From Clostridia bacterium (GTDB lineage Bacteria > Bacillota_A > Clostridia > UMGS1883 > HGM11501): a DNA stretch of 42,390 nt. The notes under the pieces were generated by a model that saw only the letters and a program-made list of their open reading frames with translations, had not been told where the DNA came from and ran no database searches. This document shows positions 5,727 through 11,599 of this stretch, one piece after another. Every line of letters begins with the position of its first letter. Position 1 is the stretch's first letter. The translations under genes were made by a program, and so were the position numbers. The stretch covers positions 1-42,390 of the forward strand of contig JAFXHP010000083.1 in the NCBI GenBank assembly GCA_017536285.1, written 5' to 3'.

Positions 5727-6758
5727 CTATTTTTTAGCCCAGCGCATTTTGGTGGATTTTGCTCTGGGATTTCTGAAGCATTCTTCTCCCGATGGACGTA
5801 TTACATCCTCGGAAATTTCGGAAAATACGCCTTCTTTCAGGTACTTCTTAAATGCCTTTTTCACCAGGCGGTCTTCTCCCGAATGGAAAGTTAAAACCGC
5901 AACTCTTCCCTTGTCACTCATAACCGAAGGGAGTTTTTCAAGGAAGGAATAAAGCACTTCAAACTCGGAGTTAACATCTATACGAAGTGCCTGAAATGTC
6001 CTTTGACAACTCTTCTTAACCGCATCTTCCCTTTCTTTTTTAGGAAGGAAGGAAAGAGCCTTTTCAATTATTTTTCTAAGGTCGGTGGTTGTTTCAATAC
6101 TTCCTCCCAAAGAATATGTTTTAATTATTTCTTCCGCAATTTCTTCGGCATAAGGCTCGTCGGAATTTTCAATAAGCATCCCGATTATTTCATCCTCCGA
6201 AAGCTCAGCTAATCTCTCTGCCGCACTAACTCCGCTGCTCTGGTCAAGCCTTAAATCAAGAGGGCCGTCAATTTTATAGGAAAATCCACGTTCCGGATTA
6301 TCTATCTGCATGGATGATACACCAAGGTCTGCCAATATAAAGTCAAACTTTTCCCCATCGGATACTTTATCCAAATCTGCAAAGTTCATATTTTTAATTG
6401 TTAGAATTTCTTCGCCATATCCTTTTTCGAAAAGCCGTGCTTTTGTTTTGGCCGATTCTTCCCTGTCAACATCTGTAGCATACATTCTTCCCTGCCCTTT
6501 AAGACACTCCATCATTTTTTCCGTATGGCCGCCATAGCCCAACGTTGCATCGTATCCTGTTTCTCCGGGTTCTATTTTAAGAAAATCGAGAATCTCATCA
6601 ACCATTATGGATATGTGCATTCCCGCAGGAGTTTTCCCCTTGCTGATGATTTTTTCTATATCGTCCTTGTATTTTTCAGGCTGATGCTCTTTATATTTTT
6701 CAGAAAACTTTTTCGGGTGTGTTCCTTTATATCGCACTCTTCTTTTATGTTCTTCCAT
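5727..6758 (-). CDS. RsmH (MraW)-like SAM methyltransferase, second paralog
   Basis: 343 residues, clearly of the RsmH family, which N4-methylates C1402 of 16S rRNA. Seen: TLGYGGHTEKM (SAM-binding motif), ADLGVSSMQID, GFSYKIDGPLDLRLD, CQRTFQALRIDVNSE and TFHSGEDRLVKK. It differs from the canonical copy at 27676-28602 in three ways. It has a basic extension of about 55 residues beginning RVRYKGTHPKKFSEKYKE. It has HSGED instead of HSLED. It lacks the Cys-rich insertion. Such divergent second copies are known in Clostridia but their substrate is not established, so I do not call it rsmH. The start at 6758 has an AAAGGGGG site 7 bp upstream, better than the ATG at 6776. It lies 23 bp after the STAND gene with no terminator between them. 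Confidence 0.85.
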   Translation of the reverse strand: MEEHKRRVRYKGTHPKKFSEKYKEHQPEKYKDDIEKIISKGKTPAGMHISIMVDEILDFLKIEPGETGYDATLGYGGHTEKMMECLKGQGRMYATDVDREESAKTKARLFEKGYGEEILTIKNMNFADLDKVSDGEKFDFILADLGVSSMQIDNPERGFSYKIDGPLDLRLDQSSGVSAAERLAELSEDEIIGMLIENSDEPYAEEIAEEIIKTYSLGGSIETTTDLRKIIEKALSFLPKKEREDAVKKSCQRTFQALRIDVNSEFEVLYSFLEKLPSVMSDKGRVAVLTFHSGEDRLVKKAFKKYLKEGVFSEISEDVIRPSGEECFRNPRAKSTKMRWAKK

Positions 6759-6781
6759 CTGTTTGCCCCCTTTCATAAAGA

Positions 6782-9700
6782 TTAAAACATAACCGTACTT
6801 TTATAAGGATAGGTTTCAGTATATATTTCAACTCCGCCGGTAAGCTCATTTATACCTGTAATTTTCCCGTTCCATTTTCTCGCTTCTTCTATACTCATTT
6901 TTTCCTCATCAAAAACAATTACTGAATTAAGCATATAGGAGACAAGAAAAAGTTTTCTTTCCTTCCTTATAAGTTTGCTTGCCAAATCATTTTTGCTTTT
7001 CACAAAGCTTGAAAAAAGAGAGTTTCCTTTTTCAAATTCTGTTTTCACAATCATATCAAAATCACAGTAGTCGTTTTCAAGTATTTTTCCGTTCAATTTG
7101 AAAATCCCGTTATCAAGCACAAGCGTGTCATTCCCGTTCCTGTACACCGCTTTGTAATTTCCGGCATAGTCGAAATCAGAATAAGCGTAGCACATAAACC
7201 TTTCAGCAAGATAAGCACCACTTAAGCACGGATATAAAAATCCTTCATACTCTTCGGTACGATATTTTTCATTTCTGATTTTATTATATTTATGCTTGAT
7301 TTTTTTGTCAACAGTAAATTCAAAGCGGCCTTCCTTTACAAAAGCAATCTTACCATCCTCTGTAAATTCCACCTGCTTCGGAGGATTGCCTCCAAAGCCA
7401 AACTTTGATATAACCTTTCCTTTTTCGACGTCAATTATTATAATTCCATCGGTTTTAAGAATATATAAAAATTTGGAATCTTTCGAAAATTCACTGTCAA
7501 TTATTGCATCAAAAACCGAAAATTCAAGATGCTTCAGCAAAAACAGCTCCTCACCTTTTCCGTCATATACCCTGATTTTTCCTGTTCCCTCATTTGCAAG
7601 CATAACATGCGAATCATTTGAAAACGCCATAAATGTTACATCTTTCAAATATTCTTCATATAGTTCGCTATACTTGGCCATGTCGTACCTGAAAAAGGAG
7701 TTATTCTTCCTGAAAAGTGTACGAAAACTTTCACGTTTTATATCAGGTACCAAATTCGTCTTGAACATATGAAGCATAAATCCTATCATCATTTCCCTGC
7801 TTGCCTCAACTGTATTGGAAGAAAGATAAAGCTTTTCACGAAGCGGTAAAAAATCATTTTCCGTCACTTTTTTCATTTCTGTCGCCGTAATCACCAATAA
7901 AGCTTCGGCGTTTCCTATACAATATGCATTACTTATTTCAGGAATATTTATATACGAAAGAGATAAATCTTTCATATCGGCTTTTATTATAGTGTTTTCA
8001 TATACAGCAACAATACAATTACCGTATTTGATAAATCGTTTTATCTCAGAAGTCTCCGGGAAATACATATACTTTTTCTTTCCGCCGGATAAAAGCCTCA
8101 ATTCCGTGTTATAAGAGTTATAGATTCCTACTCCGATTCCCTTGTCAAACAGGCACACGCTTTCCTCTTCTCCCAGATAAGGATAACGGAAGGATTCAGT
8201 TTTTATAATTGCTCCGCTTTTTAAGTCATACCTATTTGCCTTAGAGTTTTTCATAAGCCAGAGAATTTCATCTTCATTTTCATTTATATCGAAAAACTTT
8301 GTTCCCAAGCCACTAATCGCATACACTATTTCATACGTTTCCATATCTATGGCGGTCAGCTTATTTTTTCTTATGACCAAAAGATAATTATACTCAGATG
8401 AGTATTTCACAGTCTCTGTCTCATTTATATTTTTTATCTTATTTTCAAACTTTGGGATATCTCCGCTAAGATCGTAAACGTGTATTTCTTCGTTGTCGAG
8501 AACAATCGCAAGCCTGTCATCTCTTGTCCATACCAGGCTTATGATATTTTCTTTCATTATGTAATCAAGTAAATCCATATGGATGGATTGAAAATACCTA
8601 TAGGTATTTTCTCTGTAAATGTAAATATATTCATCACGTATTACGGCATACTTCTCCCCATTACATGACAAAAAGATTTCATCTTTTACATCAAAGTTCA
8701 TGCGTTCTCCCTTTATCGGCAAGTTTTTAAGCACGCCTCCTTCAAGAGTAAGACCGTAGCCGTATGCACAGCTGAATAACCCGTTTTTATAGCAGTCCAG
8801 AGTTCCAGAATTATTTCTGACACATTCAAAAAGTTTTTTCCCTTTTATTCCAAGAAGACCTTTTTCGTCAAGCTCCGCATAGCAGTCGCAAAGTTCCGTA
8901 AGATTGCCTGATTTTATCAGAGCATCTGCAAACGAAACATCAGACACAATATCTTCAAGTTCTTTATACATGCTTTTTTTCTTGAGCAAAGATATTATCG
9001 GCATAAGCTTTTTGATGTTCGGATAACCGTCCTTTGATATATAGTTATCCATCGCATCATAATACCTTATAAGATTGTTCTCCGCAGAAACGCAGTTTTC
9101 CTTAAATTCATTCAGCACAACTTTTCTGAATATATTATGGCTAAAGCTTATAATGATGCTGTCCTTAGCCATGCTGTGATGAATGCATTCCTTAAGGTCA
9201 TATAAAAGTCTTGATAAAATCGCAAAAGGAAGTTTCTTAAGTTTATAGTTATACCTGTCTTCTTTAGCAAAACTCTCTTCTATTTCCTTGTGTGTAAAAA
9301 GAAGTGTAAGAAGGTCGTCCTCAGTAATTCCGAACGGTGCTACTGCGATATAAGAAAGCACATATCGCACCACATTCTCATCGTGTCCGCAATTTCTGAA
9401 CATATCAAATATATGAATTTTCGCCATTTCATAATCGTCAAAAACAAAATTTTCCACATAATCTCCCGAGTGCCATCCTGCAGCCAGGTCTGAAAGCAGC
9501 TTACATGATAACGGATTTGCTCCGTTTGAAAGACAGTCTTCTACCAGTGCCTTCTGTCCTTCCGATATAAGCGTTCTTCCTCTGCTTGACAGCATTTTAT
9601 AAAAGCTGTCAGCTGCATCCTCCTTTGAAAAACCGGTTATATGATATTCCGTATCATTTATTTGTTTAAACTTTTCCACTATTTTTTCATCGGCAGAAGA

Positions 9701-11080
9701 CACAATGATTTTAACGTCTTTCATTAATTCTTCGGGGAACACGTTTACATTAACCTCTCCGATATCATAAAACATGTCCATTCCATCAATCACGATAACA
9801 GTTTTGCTGTAAGTAGGCGTTTTCCCCATTGCTTCTGAAAACATTTCAGATATATTATAGCGGTTAATTTCTTCACTTAAGGATATATCATACTCCTCCG
9901 TAATCATAATGCAAAGCTTTTTCAAACAGTCATAAAAATTATATATATCATTTTCTCCGAATAAAACATAAAAAACGTCTACAGACTTTTTATCCATAAA
10001 CCTTTTGGTTGCAGCCCACGCTTCTTTAAGGGACTCTTTATCTTTTGCTTCCTTCAGTTCTGCTTCATATTCCTTATTCGGATCATACTCTCTGTAAAAA
10101 TTAATAAACTCTTTAAGAAGTGTGGTTTTTCCGCTTCCTGACTCTCCTTTAAGAAAGTAAACTCCCCTGTCATCTCCTTCAACGTAGTTTTTAAGCCTAT
10201 TAATATCTTCCTGACGTCCGCAAAACATACCCTCAGGTAATTTCCCGGGAATGTACTCTTCTTTCAGTCCATCCAATCTTTCAAATTCACTTAAAATATT
10301 TTTAATTAAGAGTTCTGTAACTCTTTGTTCCATCAATTCATAATATTCATCATTAAAATCCAGAGTTATTATGTTTTCCGAAAGATTGTCCTCCTCCATT
10401 TTTTCCCTTATTCTTCTTTTAAGCTCGCAAGTCCTTGTCATATCCCGGTCCTTTTCCGGGTATCCCTCTCTCATAAGAACGATTACATTGTCTGCAATGT
10501 CTTCATTTCCAAAAAGACCTTTTAATATTTCGTGTTCCGTTGCCGACGCTTCATATTTTACCAATTCCTCTTTTTTTAATGAACACTCTTTTGCTCTCTT
10601 TTCCAGTATTGCATGAAGCTTTTCTTCTTCACTATACCAGATATTATCGTCCACATATTCCCCGCTTCTCCTATTTAAATAGTAAACCTTGGGAATGTTG
10701 TTTTCATCAAGCAAATACCACTTATAAAGCAATTTTTTTTCTTCATCATGGCACAAAGCAATTATTTTTTCAAATTCTGTCGCCTCTACTACCGAAGGAA
10801 GCGGAACCCATCCGTATCTGTCACCTGCCATAATAAGAAAGTTTGGTTTCGGAGAATTGCTCATGCAGTAATTTATCTCATCAAGGCAAATTTCAAGTGT
10901 ATTCTGATTCAGTGCCGACTCCGTGTTTATTCCCCATCTCAAGTCGACAATCTGAAATCCGCATCCTCTTCTCTTTAAAAGTGCACTTACCTTTTCAAAT
11001 ATTTCATTATTTAATATAGCTCGTTCTTTTATAAAATCGCTGAATGTGGAGCTTACAAAAAGACGGAATGTATTATTCAT
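6782..11080 (-). CDS. DUF4062 - STAND/NACHT NTPase - beta-propeller protein
   Basis: A 1432-residue multidomain protein. Residues 1-95 are a DUF4062 domain with its full signature (FRLFVSSTFSDFIKER, VDLRWGI, ICLDEI, GDRYGW), the same N-terminal module as metazoan TEP1, NWD1 and NPHP3. A STAND-type ATPase follows: MFCGRQEDINRL entry (285-296), P-loop GESGSGKTT (312-320), Walker B VIVIDGMD (428-435) and the ITGFSKEDA turn (481-489). A helical region comes next. From about residue 790 to the end there are WD40/propeller-like blades (IHVYDLSGD, IRVYDGKGE, IIIDVEKGK). No signal peptide or membrane segment is seen. STAND proteins are signal-triggered oligomeric switches, and bacterial ones include anti-phage Avs proteins. 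Here the DUF4062 would be the effector or adaptor and the propeller the sensor. That role is inference. Confidence 0.85.
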   Translation of the reverse strand: MNNTFRLFVSSTFSDFIKERAILNNEIFEKVSALLKRRGCGFQIVDLRWGINTESALNQNTLEICLDEINYCMSNSPKPNFLIMAGDRYGWVPLPSVVEATEFEKIIALCHDEEKKLLYKWYLLDENNIPKVYYLNRRSGEYVDDNIWYSEEEKLHAILEKRAKECSLKKEELVKYEASATEHEILKGLFGNEDIADNVIVLMREGYPEKDRDMTRTCELKRRIREKMEEDNLSENIITLDFNDEYYELMEQRVTELLIKNILSEFERLDGLKEEYIPGKLPEGMFCGRQEDINRLKNYVEGDDRGVYFLKGESGSGKTTLLKEFINFYREYDPNKEYEAELKEAKDKESLKEAWAATKRFMDKKSVDVFYVLFGENDIYNFYDCLKKLCIMITEEYDISLSEEINRYNISEMFSEAMGKTPTYSKTVIVIDGMDMFYDIGEVNVNVFPEELMKDVKIIVSSADEKIVEKFKQINDTEYHITGFSKEDAADSFYKMLSSRGRTLISEGQKALVEDCLSNGANPLSCKLLSDLAAGWHSGDYVENFVFDDYEMAKIHIFDMFRNCGHDENVVRYVLSYIAVAPFGITEDDLLTLLFTHKEIEESFAKEDRYNYKLKKLPFAILSRLLYDLKECIHHSMAKDSIIISFSHNIFRKVVLNEFKENCVSAENNLIRYYDAMDNYISKDGYPNIKKLMPIISLLKKKSMYKELEDIVSDVSFADALIKSGNLTELCDCYAELDEKGLLGIKGKKLFECVRNNSGTLDCYKNGLFSCAYGYGLTLEGGVLKNLPIKGERMNFDVKDEIFLSCNGEKYAVIRDEYIYIYRENTYRYFQSIHMDLLDYIMKENIISLVWTRDDRLAIVLDNEEIHVYDLSGDIPKFENKIKNINETETVKYSSEYNYLLVIRKNKLTAIDMETYEIVYAISGLGTKFFDINENEDEILWLMKNSKANRYDLKSGAIIKTESFRYPYLGEEESVCLFDKGIGVGIYNSYNTELRLLSGGKKKYMYFPETSEIKRFIKYGNCIVAVYENTIIKADMKDLSLSYINIPEISNAYCIGNAEALLVITATEMKKVTENDFLPLREKLYLSSNTVEASREMMIGFMLHMFKTNLVPDIKRESFRTLFRKNNSFFRYDMAKYSELYEEYLKDVTFMAFSNDSHVMLANEGTGKIRVYDGKGEELFLLKHLEFSVFDAIIDSEFSKDSKFLYILKTDGIIIIDVEKGKVISKFGFGGNPPKQVEFTEDGKIAFVKEGRFEFTVDKKIKHKYNKIRNEKYRTEEYEGFLYPCLSGAYLAERFMCYAYSDFDYAGNYKAVYRNGNDTLVLDNGIFKLNGKILENDYCDFDMIVKTEFEKGNSLFSSFVKSKNDLASKLIRKERKLFLVSYMLNSVIVFDEEKMSIEEARKWNGKITGINELTGGVEIYTETYPYKSTVMF

Positions 11081-11083
11081 AGC

Positions 11084-11539
11084 TTAATCCTCAATTTTAT
11101 ATTTTTTTCTTATTCTAAGGAGTGTGCGTTTTAATCCCAGTTTCCCTGTAACAATGATTAATGTAATACATAATATAATCGCAATTATAATTCCGATTAC
11201 AATAATCAATGCCGGAAAAGTGAAAAATAAAAGCAACAACGGTATCCATAAATTCGTAACATAAAAATTCTCCATAACCCAAATCACCGCTACTGCATCG
11301 GTCATAACCCAAAGCATTATAATAGGAACCGTTAAAAAAAGCGAAACTCTTTTTTTCTTTTCCGTGAAAGGTTTTTCCCCGCTTTTCAGTATTCCGGAAA
11401 ATTTGCCGTTGTAATTTATATATTCAGAAGAGCGTGTCCTGTAAATAAGATTTTCAATTACAGCAACAAAAACGCATACAACGGCAGTGATTATCATAAG
11501 AAGCCCAAAAAGCTCCCACAAAGATATTCGCAAGTTCAT
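11084..11539 (-). CDS. Small multi-spanning membrane protein of unknown function
   Basis: 151 residues, not recognised as a named family. Hydrophobic segments occur at about residues 8-30, 66-86, 91-112 and 114-133, with a polar, Lys-rich stretch between the first two (residues 33-62) and a basic tail (KLGLKRTLLRIRKKYKIED). This gives three or four membrane helices and no enzymatic motif. The frame is open from 11599, but the promoter -10 box lies at 11576-11571, so the ATG at 11539 with its AAAGGGTG site is the start. It is the first gene of the operon and ends 3 bp before the STAND gene, so the two are translationally linked. It could be a membrane partner or target of the STAND protein. 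Confidence 0.75.
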   Translation of the reverse strand: MNLRISLWELFGLLMIITAVVCVFVAVIENLIYRTRSSEYINYNGKFSGILKSGEKPFTEKKKRVSLFLTVPIIMLWVMTDAVAVIWVMENFYVTNLWIPLLLLFFTFPALIIVIGIIIAIILCITLIIVTGKLGLKRTLLRIRKKYKIED

Positions 11540-11570
11540 ACAATACACCCTTTTTAATGTCATTTGTTTT

Positions 11571-11599
11571 ATTATAGCAGAAATTTCACGGATGCACAA
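11571..11599 (-). promoter_or_regulatory. Promoter of the STAND operon
   Basis: Minus strand: a TTGTGC -35 (11599-11594), a 17-bp spacer and an extended -10 TGCTATAAT (TATAAT at 11576-11571). The start of transcription falls near 11564, 25 bp before the first gene's start codon. No operator-like palindrome is evident here. Confidence 0.7.

Follow-up and report, generated by a model that had tools for sequence, protein, structure and literature searches.

Avs and other bacterial STAND and NACHT defence proteins carry an N-terminal effector, an NTPase and a C-terminal sensor. Thoeris has a TIR-fold NADase beside a second gene, a ThsA-type effector neighbour, and Apaf-1 joins a CARD effector to an NTPase, a helical part and two propellers. 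The NADase nature of DUF4062 has been known only since 2026, from the one paper found (a May 2026 preprint, PMC13174449), which covers a bacterial protein with a small auxiliary domain and human TEP1. According to that preprint DUF4062 is a TIR-like NADase with a conserved catalytic Glu, antiphage in Swarozyc (Swz) and active in TEP1; both KpSwz and TEP1 gave plain ADP-ribose, whereas human NWD1, NWD2 and NPHP3, which have the same plan, showed no NADase activity (PMC13174449). For the bacterium T. azotonutricium one passage mentions a protein with DUF4062 before a NACHT-type NTPase, followed by TPR rather than propellers, and the passage gives neither a partner nor a function (PMC4452313). 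DUF4062 as an NADase, the TEP1 plan, STAND defence proteins and, in passing, a bacterial DUF4062/NACHT protein are already known; new at the locus described here is the abutting upstream multi-TM gene, found in 11 of 12 relatives of its clade, with partners in unrelated forms.

The locus is a two-gene cassette on the minus strand of a Clostridia contig, of which a stretch of 42,390 nucleotides (the window) was analysed; its features are collected in Table 1. As the initial annotation had it, the gene of a small membrane protein, opening with ATG, ends 3 bp before that of a 1432-residue protein (TAA GCT ATG), and the large protein has an intact P-loop and Walker B behind a DUF4062 domain (Pfam, residues 6-103, 32.7 bits against a cut-off of 24.7). 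The order along the minus strand is the GH2 gene with its terminator, the 151-aa gene, the 4.3-kb large gene, the RsmH-like gene and a DUF805 gene.

The large protein has DUF4062, NTPase and propellers in the order of the TEP1/NWD1-type plan proposed for it, the propellers coming from a model of medium confidence. DUF4062 followed by an NTPase is common to animal TEP1, NWD1 and NPHP3, and propellers are found in TEP1 and NWD1; a weak match to a winged helix of NWD1 type (HTH_NWD1, 16.8 against a cut-off of 27) lies between NTPase and propellers. Unlike the animal proteins, the cassette is bacterial and accessory, has a membrane partner, and shows no TROVE or vWA among its Pfam matches. With Apaf-1 the large protein shares the succession of effector domain, NTPase, helical part and two propellers, but its effector domain is TIR-like. 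Swarozyc has the same N-terminal TIR-like domain with its catalytic Glu, but KpSwz relies on a small auxiliary HTH/winged domain to detect the phage portal (PMC13174449), where the cassette has an NTPase, two propellers (by Pfam and the structure model) and a membrane partner. It differs from Thoeris in that the second gene encodes a membrane protein, and from Avs in its DUF4062 effector, no Avs model being among the PADLOC matches. The searched text of open-licence papers contained no pairing of a DUF4062-STAND protein with a membrane protein, in line with the earlier remark that the pairing was not recognised as a described system, and 'membrane', 'transmembrane', 'RyR' and 'channel' occur 0 times in the main text of PMC13174449.

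Table 1. Features of the cassette and its surroundings (positions in the window).
Feature	Position	Strand	Basis
Large protein, 1432 aa: DUF4062 (TIR-like), STAND-type NTPase, tandem beta-propeller	6782..11080	-	ORF, Pfam, alignment
Membrane protein, 151 aa, 3 (possibly 4) TM, basic loop and C-tail, abuts large gene	11084..11539	-	ORF, TM scan
TIR-like DUF4062 domain, residues 1-275	10256..11080	-	
Codon of E184, equivalent of TEP1 catalytic E1008	10529..10531	-	residue mapping on 11gz_A
P-loop NTPase core, residues 286-461	9698..10225	-	Pfam ATPase_2 and AAA_22
Walker A GESGSGKT, residues 312-319 (K318)	10124..10147	-	
Walker B VIVIDG, residues 428-433	9782..9799	-	
First predicted propeller, about seven four-stranded blades, residues 801-1083	7832..8680	-	structure model; blades counted by eye
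Second predicted propeller, about 6-7 blades with helical inserts	6785..7633	-	structure model, lower confidence; blades counted by eye
Accessory cassette, 4810 bp against 30 bp in sister genome G341	6759..11568	.	genome comparison
Terminator after upstream GH2 gene; hairpin at same place in sister genome	11606..11633	-	fold z -5.8, genome comparison
Extended -10 TGCTATAAT; in sister genome before rsmH-like gene	11571..11579	-	read by eye
RsmH-like gene directly downstream of cassette	5727..6758	-	Pfam Methyltransf_5; start matched to sister genome

The best solved match of the DUF4062 region was the human TEP1 domain (E 3e-13 in one search, 1e-24 in another). In the alignment to 11gz_A, where R, R, R and E land on 908, 954, 976 and 1008 with a numbering offset of 893 and no other, the TEP1 catalytic residue falls on E184, inside a predicted helix (180-188); S179, T181 and E184 occur without change in all 28 aligned domains. 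The domain is predicted to have a TIR-like fold by VIA-align, in which TIR and NDT chains top the structural list; a Foldseek search with it gave no significant TIR match. Support for the TIR reading comes from the preprint (PMC13174449), the VIA-align result and the sequence match to TEP1. Because the catalytic residue of TEP1 maps on an invariant Glu, the large protein itself, through its DUF4062 domain, most likely acts as the effector, and this makes it a likelier effector than the membrane protein, which had been suggested as effector target or pore. We infer that the large protein is an NADase from these residues; a conserved fold is no proof of activity, since NWD1, NWD2 and NPHP3 showed no activity despite the same plan.

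Over the NTPase, ATPase_2 (34.8 against 33.2) and AAA_22 (30.6 against 27) exceed their Pfam cut-offs and NACHT (24.6 against 26.7) stays under its own. The C-terminal half had been annotated as one propeller; the fold is borne out by the structure model (mean pLDDT 72, pTM 0.45), which predicts two propellers. Among the best 50 Foldseek rows for this half are many tandem WD proteins, e.g. Utp21, Apaf-1 and the apoptosome (3shf, 3sfz, 5juy), at low TM-scores of 0.15-0.36 over the model, in our opinion because the position of one propeller relative to the other is not fixed. Against ten relatives, identity drops from 43-67% in the TIR-like domain to 31-54% in the NTPase and 19-40% in the C-terminal half (alignment of 11 proteins, P0003 being partial; relatives are at least those listed by a protein search that scored the 7,994 candidates sharing most words). 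Such a gradient is what an invariable effector combined with a changing sensor would show, and the variable region expected by the initial annotation is found in the propeller half.

The closest genome found, with 391 genomes of one class sampled, was a sister genome with a 99% identical RecA. From the GH2 gene to the RsmH-like gene its DNA is 82-83% identical to the window, with 30 bp in place of the 4810 bp, and profile searches for the family gave no match in it and the other three genomes of its family (0/4; E cut-off 1e-30; runs without a positive genome). The cassette is accessory, and the site being empty in so close a genome speaks against a core gene. The two genomes fit gain in the window as well as loss in the sister, although two features lean towards gain, which would have been horizontal: the cassette genes are low in GC (33-35% against 36-47% in 24 other window genes), and their codon use is unusual (r 0.39 and 0.68, where five genes taken for comparison have 0.74-0.89; the value for the 151-codon gene is noisy, and three of those five belong to the reference set).

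Both genes had been placed behind one extended -10 insulated by a terminator. The terminator folds well and the -10 can be read by eye, while a two-hexamer promoter scan ahead of the 151-aa gene found 0 where 1.1 is expected by chance; in the sister, however, both elements stand ahead of the rsmH-like gene, so that they probably belong to the host and not to the cassette. The cassette accordingly lies between promoter and gene, with the RsmH-like gene now behind it. In five genomes searched, a 95% orthologue of that gene was found only in the sister, at the same place. The sister also has a second copy at 38%, three other genomes have homologues at only 33-38% and one is without a match; given the 95% orthologue and the 38% copy in the sister, the window's gene is probably a second copy.

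When one genome per species was scanned, DUF4062 relatives turned up at 52 loci. A partner was defined as an ORF of at least 60 aa within 60 bp and with at least two Kyte-Doolittle TM stretches. The partner count is also over 52, namely 50 scan loci, L076 and the window; L015 and L018, with less than 330 bp upstream, were dropped and L077, from the same genome as L036, was left out. An upstream multi-TM partner was found at 16 of these 52 loci against 22/318 control genes in the same loci (22/306 with a narrower choice of upstream ORFs). In the Bacillota/Coriobacteria clade that contains the window (SH-aLRT 98), such a gene abuts the large one in 11/12 (Fisher p 2e-11 against all controls and 1e-9 against 4/70 controls from the same loci, with rows that are not independent, related loci sharing partner families). 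A mainly Campylobacterota/Bacteroidota group has a partner in 5/17 (3/15 without the hand-placed fragments L043 and L046) and the remaining loci in 0/23, the later locus L086 being likewise without one. The tree is a quick one with SH-aLRT support in which L003 is flagged as a long branch; L036, L043, L046, L040, L041, L051 and L052 were too short for it and were placed by hand, the clade count being 10/11 without L036 and the last four being counted in the 0/23. At 11 of the 15 loci besides the window the partner overlaps or just reaches the start codon, and at the rest it is 12-36 bp away. The one clade member without a partner, L026, has only, on its opposite strand, a divergent gene of 196 aa whose product shows 4 TM stretches. 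These recurrent abutting partners, of several families, support the pair as a real unit and show that the large gene is not always alone.

Partner TM counts are from Kyte-Doolittle only, and some partner starts are uncertain, notably in L003, whose first part looks spurious. The clade partners form about six families not joined by BLASTP below E 0.01: L001/L002 (signal or TM, LRR_5, then 3 TM), L003 (E 0.02 to L001), the window's 151-aa protein, L010/L028/L036 (80-111 aa, 2 TM), L012/L017/L076 (about 260 aa, 5-6 TM) and L005. On the tree the nearest large proteins with known context are L002 and then L001; the LRR_5 domains of their partners are probably outside the cell, which suggests an input role. 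Partners in the other group have 559-637 aa and 2-3 TM stretches; those of L007, L039 and L043, the three scanned out of five, match TrkA_N above and RyR below the Pfam cut-off, and those of L009 and L046 are homologous to them by BLASTP. A phage RyR-domain protein is described in a passage of PMC13232231 as cleaving cyclic ADP-ribose immune signals, which its relatives hold. An RyR domain recurring beside an NADase gene would fit ADP-ribose sensing, and these partners are possibly ADP-ribose-responsive membrane proteins.

Several of the loci had other features. In L036 (9071-13039) the assembly splits the large gene into several ORFs but leaves the 80-aa 2-TM partner gene open. Ordinary TIR-domain genes adjoin the DUF4062 locus before the membrane gene in L003 (6239-8935) and lie 12 bp before the DUF4062 start in L051 (2362-3984). 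Tandem pairs, with a second protein of 1166-1193 aa and DUF4062-like start 68-81 bp before the DUF4062-NTPase gene, were seen in L011 (10010-13510), L014 (9971-13552) and L023 (6453-10034), and in L030 (2910-4499) the DUF4062 gene starts 2 bp after the end of a gene whose product has a TPR-S match below cut-off.

The Kyte-Doolittle scan of the 151-aa protein gave four hydrophobic stretches, two of them contiguous. As the inner loop and the C-tail are basic, it may be read as a 3-TM protein with the N-terminus out and the C-terminus in. Membership in a known family was rejected, Pfam, NCBIfam and PADLOC giving no match above cut-off, and a protein search needing shared 5-residue words returned as its only relative a 99% copy (P0031). 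Compared with the LRR_5 and 3-TM partners of L001 and L002, it gave an hhalign probability of 2.7%, with two of five other cross-family pairs higher (16% and 7%). Segment-preserving shuffles gave z 2.95 (L002), 2.0 (P0032), 0.7 (L001) and 0.3 (L003), against -1.7 to 1.1 for nine others, and an additional search added one further relative, of the L002 partner only; these values are at most suggestive of homology to the 3-TM module of the LRR partners. From the basic inner loop and tail, the lack of room for a ligand domain and the LRR partners of the nearest large proteins, the 151-aa protein would most likely be on the input side, as anchor or sensor.

The family is rare, with matches in 2/295, 3/392, 1/146, 1/391 and 2/346 genomes of samples of orders and classes (overlapping samples, E cut-offs 1e-40 to 1e-60, 7 of the 9 matching genomes being seed genomes). 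Carriage by phages or plasmids was considered and rejected, as no relatives were found in viral contigs or phages and the two plasmid matches span DUF4062 alone. The defence-island setting that the initial annotation looked for was not seen within the window: Pfam named no defence gene among 13 neighbours, and PADLOC on 8 of them matched a cysteine desulfurase (589-1728) to SspA (E 3e-111) and DndA (2e-110), a glucan-branching enzyme to the GlgB model and, weakly, two others. Since ThiI adjoins the cysteine desulfurase, we read these matches as housekeeping enzymes of broad families. PADLOC gave no specific model for either cassette protein; the defence-system HMM search proposed for the STAND protein returned only PDC-M16A, mad3 and mad8, all over the P-loop region.

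A conserved effector, a less conserved switch and a variable propeller half are as expected of an NLR-type receptor. The reading we put forward, with about as much confidence as doubt, is that the two genes form an immune module, gained horizontally, which operates as an NADase system of NLR/Apaf-1 type does, with the membrane protein on the input side. The large protein would be autoinhibited at rest, until a phage or envelope-stress signal reaches the tandem propellers. ATP-dependent oligomerisation through the NTPase would then align the N-terminal TIR-like domains, which would hydrolyse NAD+ using E184 and lead to growth arrest or abortive death. The 151-aa protein would hold the large protein at the cytoplasmic membrane and relay the envelope signal. 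NADase activity, oligomerisation, the phage trigger, the horizontal gain and the role of the partner are the conjectural parts of this scheme. Against the reading as a whole are the window without a defence island, the human proteins of the same plan that showed no NADase activity, the TrkA_N/RyR partners, which look more like output, L026 without its partner, and the 151-aa protein with relatives limited to a 99% copy.

The main rival to the input role places the membrane protein at the output, where it would act as another effector: a pore or channel that opens in response to ADP-ribose or a related product of the TIR-like domain, or on touching the large protein once this has assembled. The TrkA_N and RyR matches of the other group, with their two homologous partners, would suit such a channel, as would the RyR-domain proteins that cleave or hold cADPR signals in the passage of PMC13232231, and small 2-TM partners do occur. 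In the window's partner, however, a loop of some 35 residues and a short tail leave no space for a ligand-binding domain, plain ADP-ribose is what KpSwz and TEP1 produced (PMC13174449), and the LRR domains of other partners look like input; we regard an output pore as rather unlikely here.

An immune function itself may be questioned, in that the cassette could serve signalling or assembly outside immunity, its DUF4062 being catalytically silent like that of NWD1, NWD2 and NPHP3 (PMC13174449). The absence of a defence island in the window would agree with this, but the three invariant residues in all aligned domains and a rare, accessory distribution unlike that of a housekeeping role make it improbable. 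Less probable still is that the large protein acts alone beside a bystander membrane gene. The partners are indeed not one family, and none was found outside the two partner-bearing groups (0/23 and L086), but the enrichment in the clade over both control sets, albeit in rows that are not independent, and the overlapping or immediately abutting partners at most loci speak against coincidence.

An optional cassette with recurrent but differing membrane partners suggests an unstudied membrane-coupled bacterial immune module, the preferred reading above. The cassette adds to the DUF4062 NADases a bacterial protein of the TEP1/Apaf-1 plan, with its catalytic residue intact and a membrane partner, and offers a small system in which to study the activation of a TIR-like NADase by tandem propellers and a membrane partner, a question that the vault raises too. 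It is tempting to speculate, although we are more doubtful than convinced, that in this clade, and perhaps beyond it, DUF4062-STAND NADases serve as immune receptors made of two parts and coupled to the membrane, in which a fast-evolving membrane protein (by lineage with LRR outside the cell or as an ADP-ribose-responsive TrkA_N-RyR protein) is combined with a cytoplasmic TIR-like STAND protein. If true, such an arrangement would recall Toll-like receptors and their TIR partners, and would bear on the origin of TEP1-type proteins.
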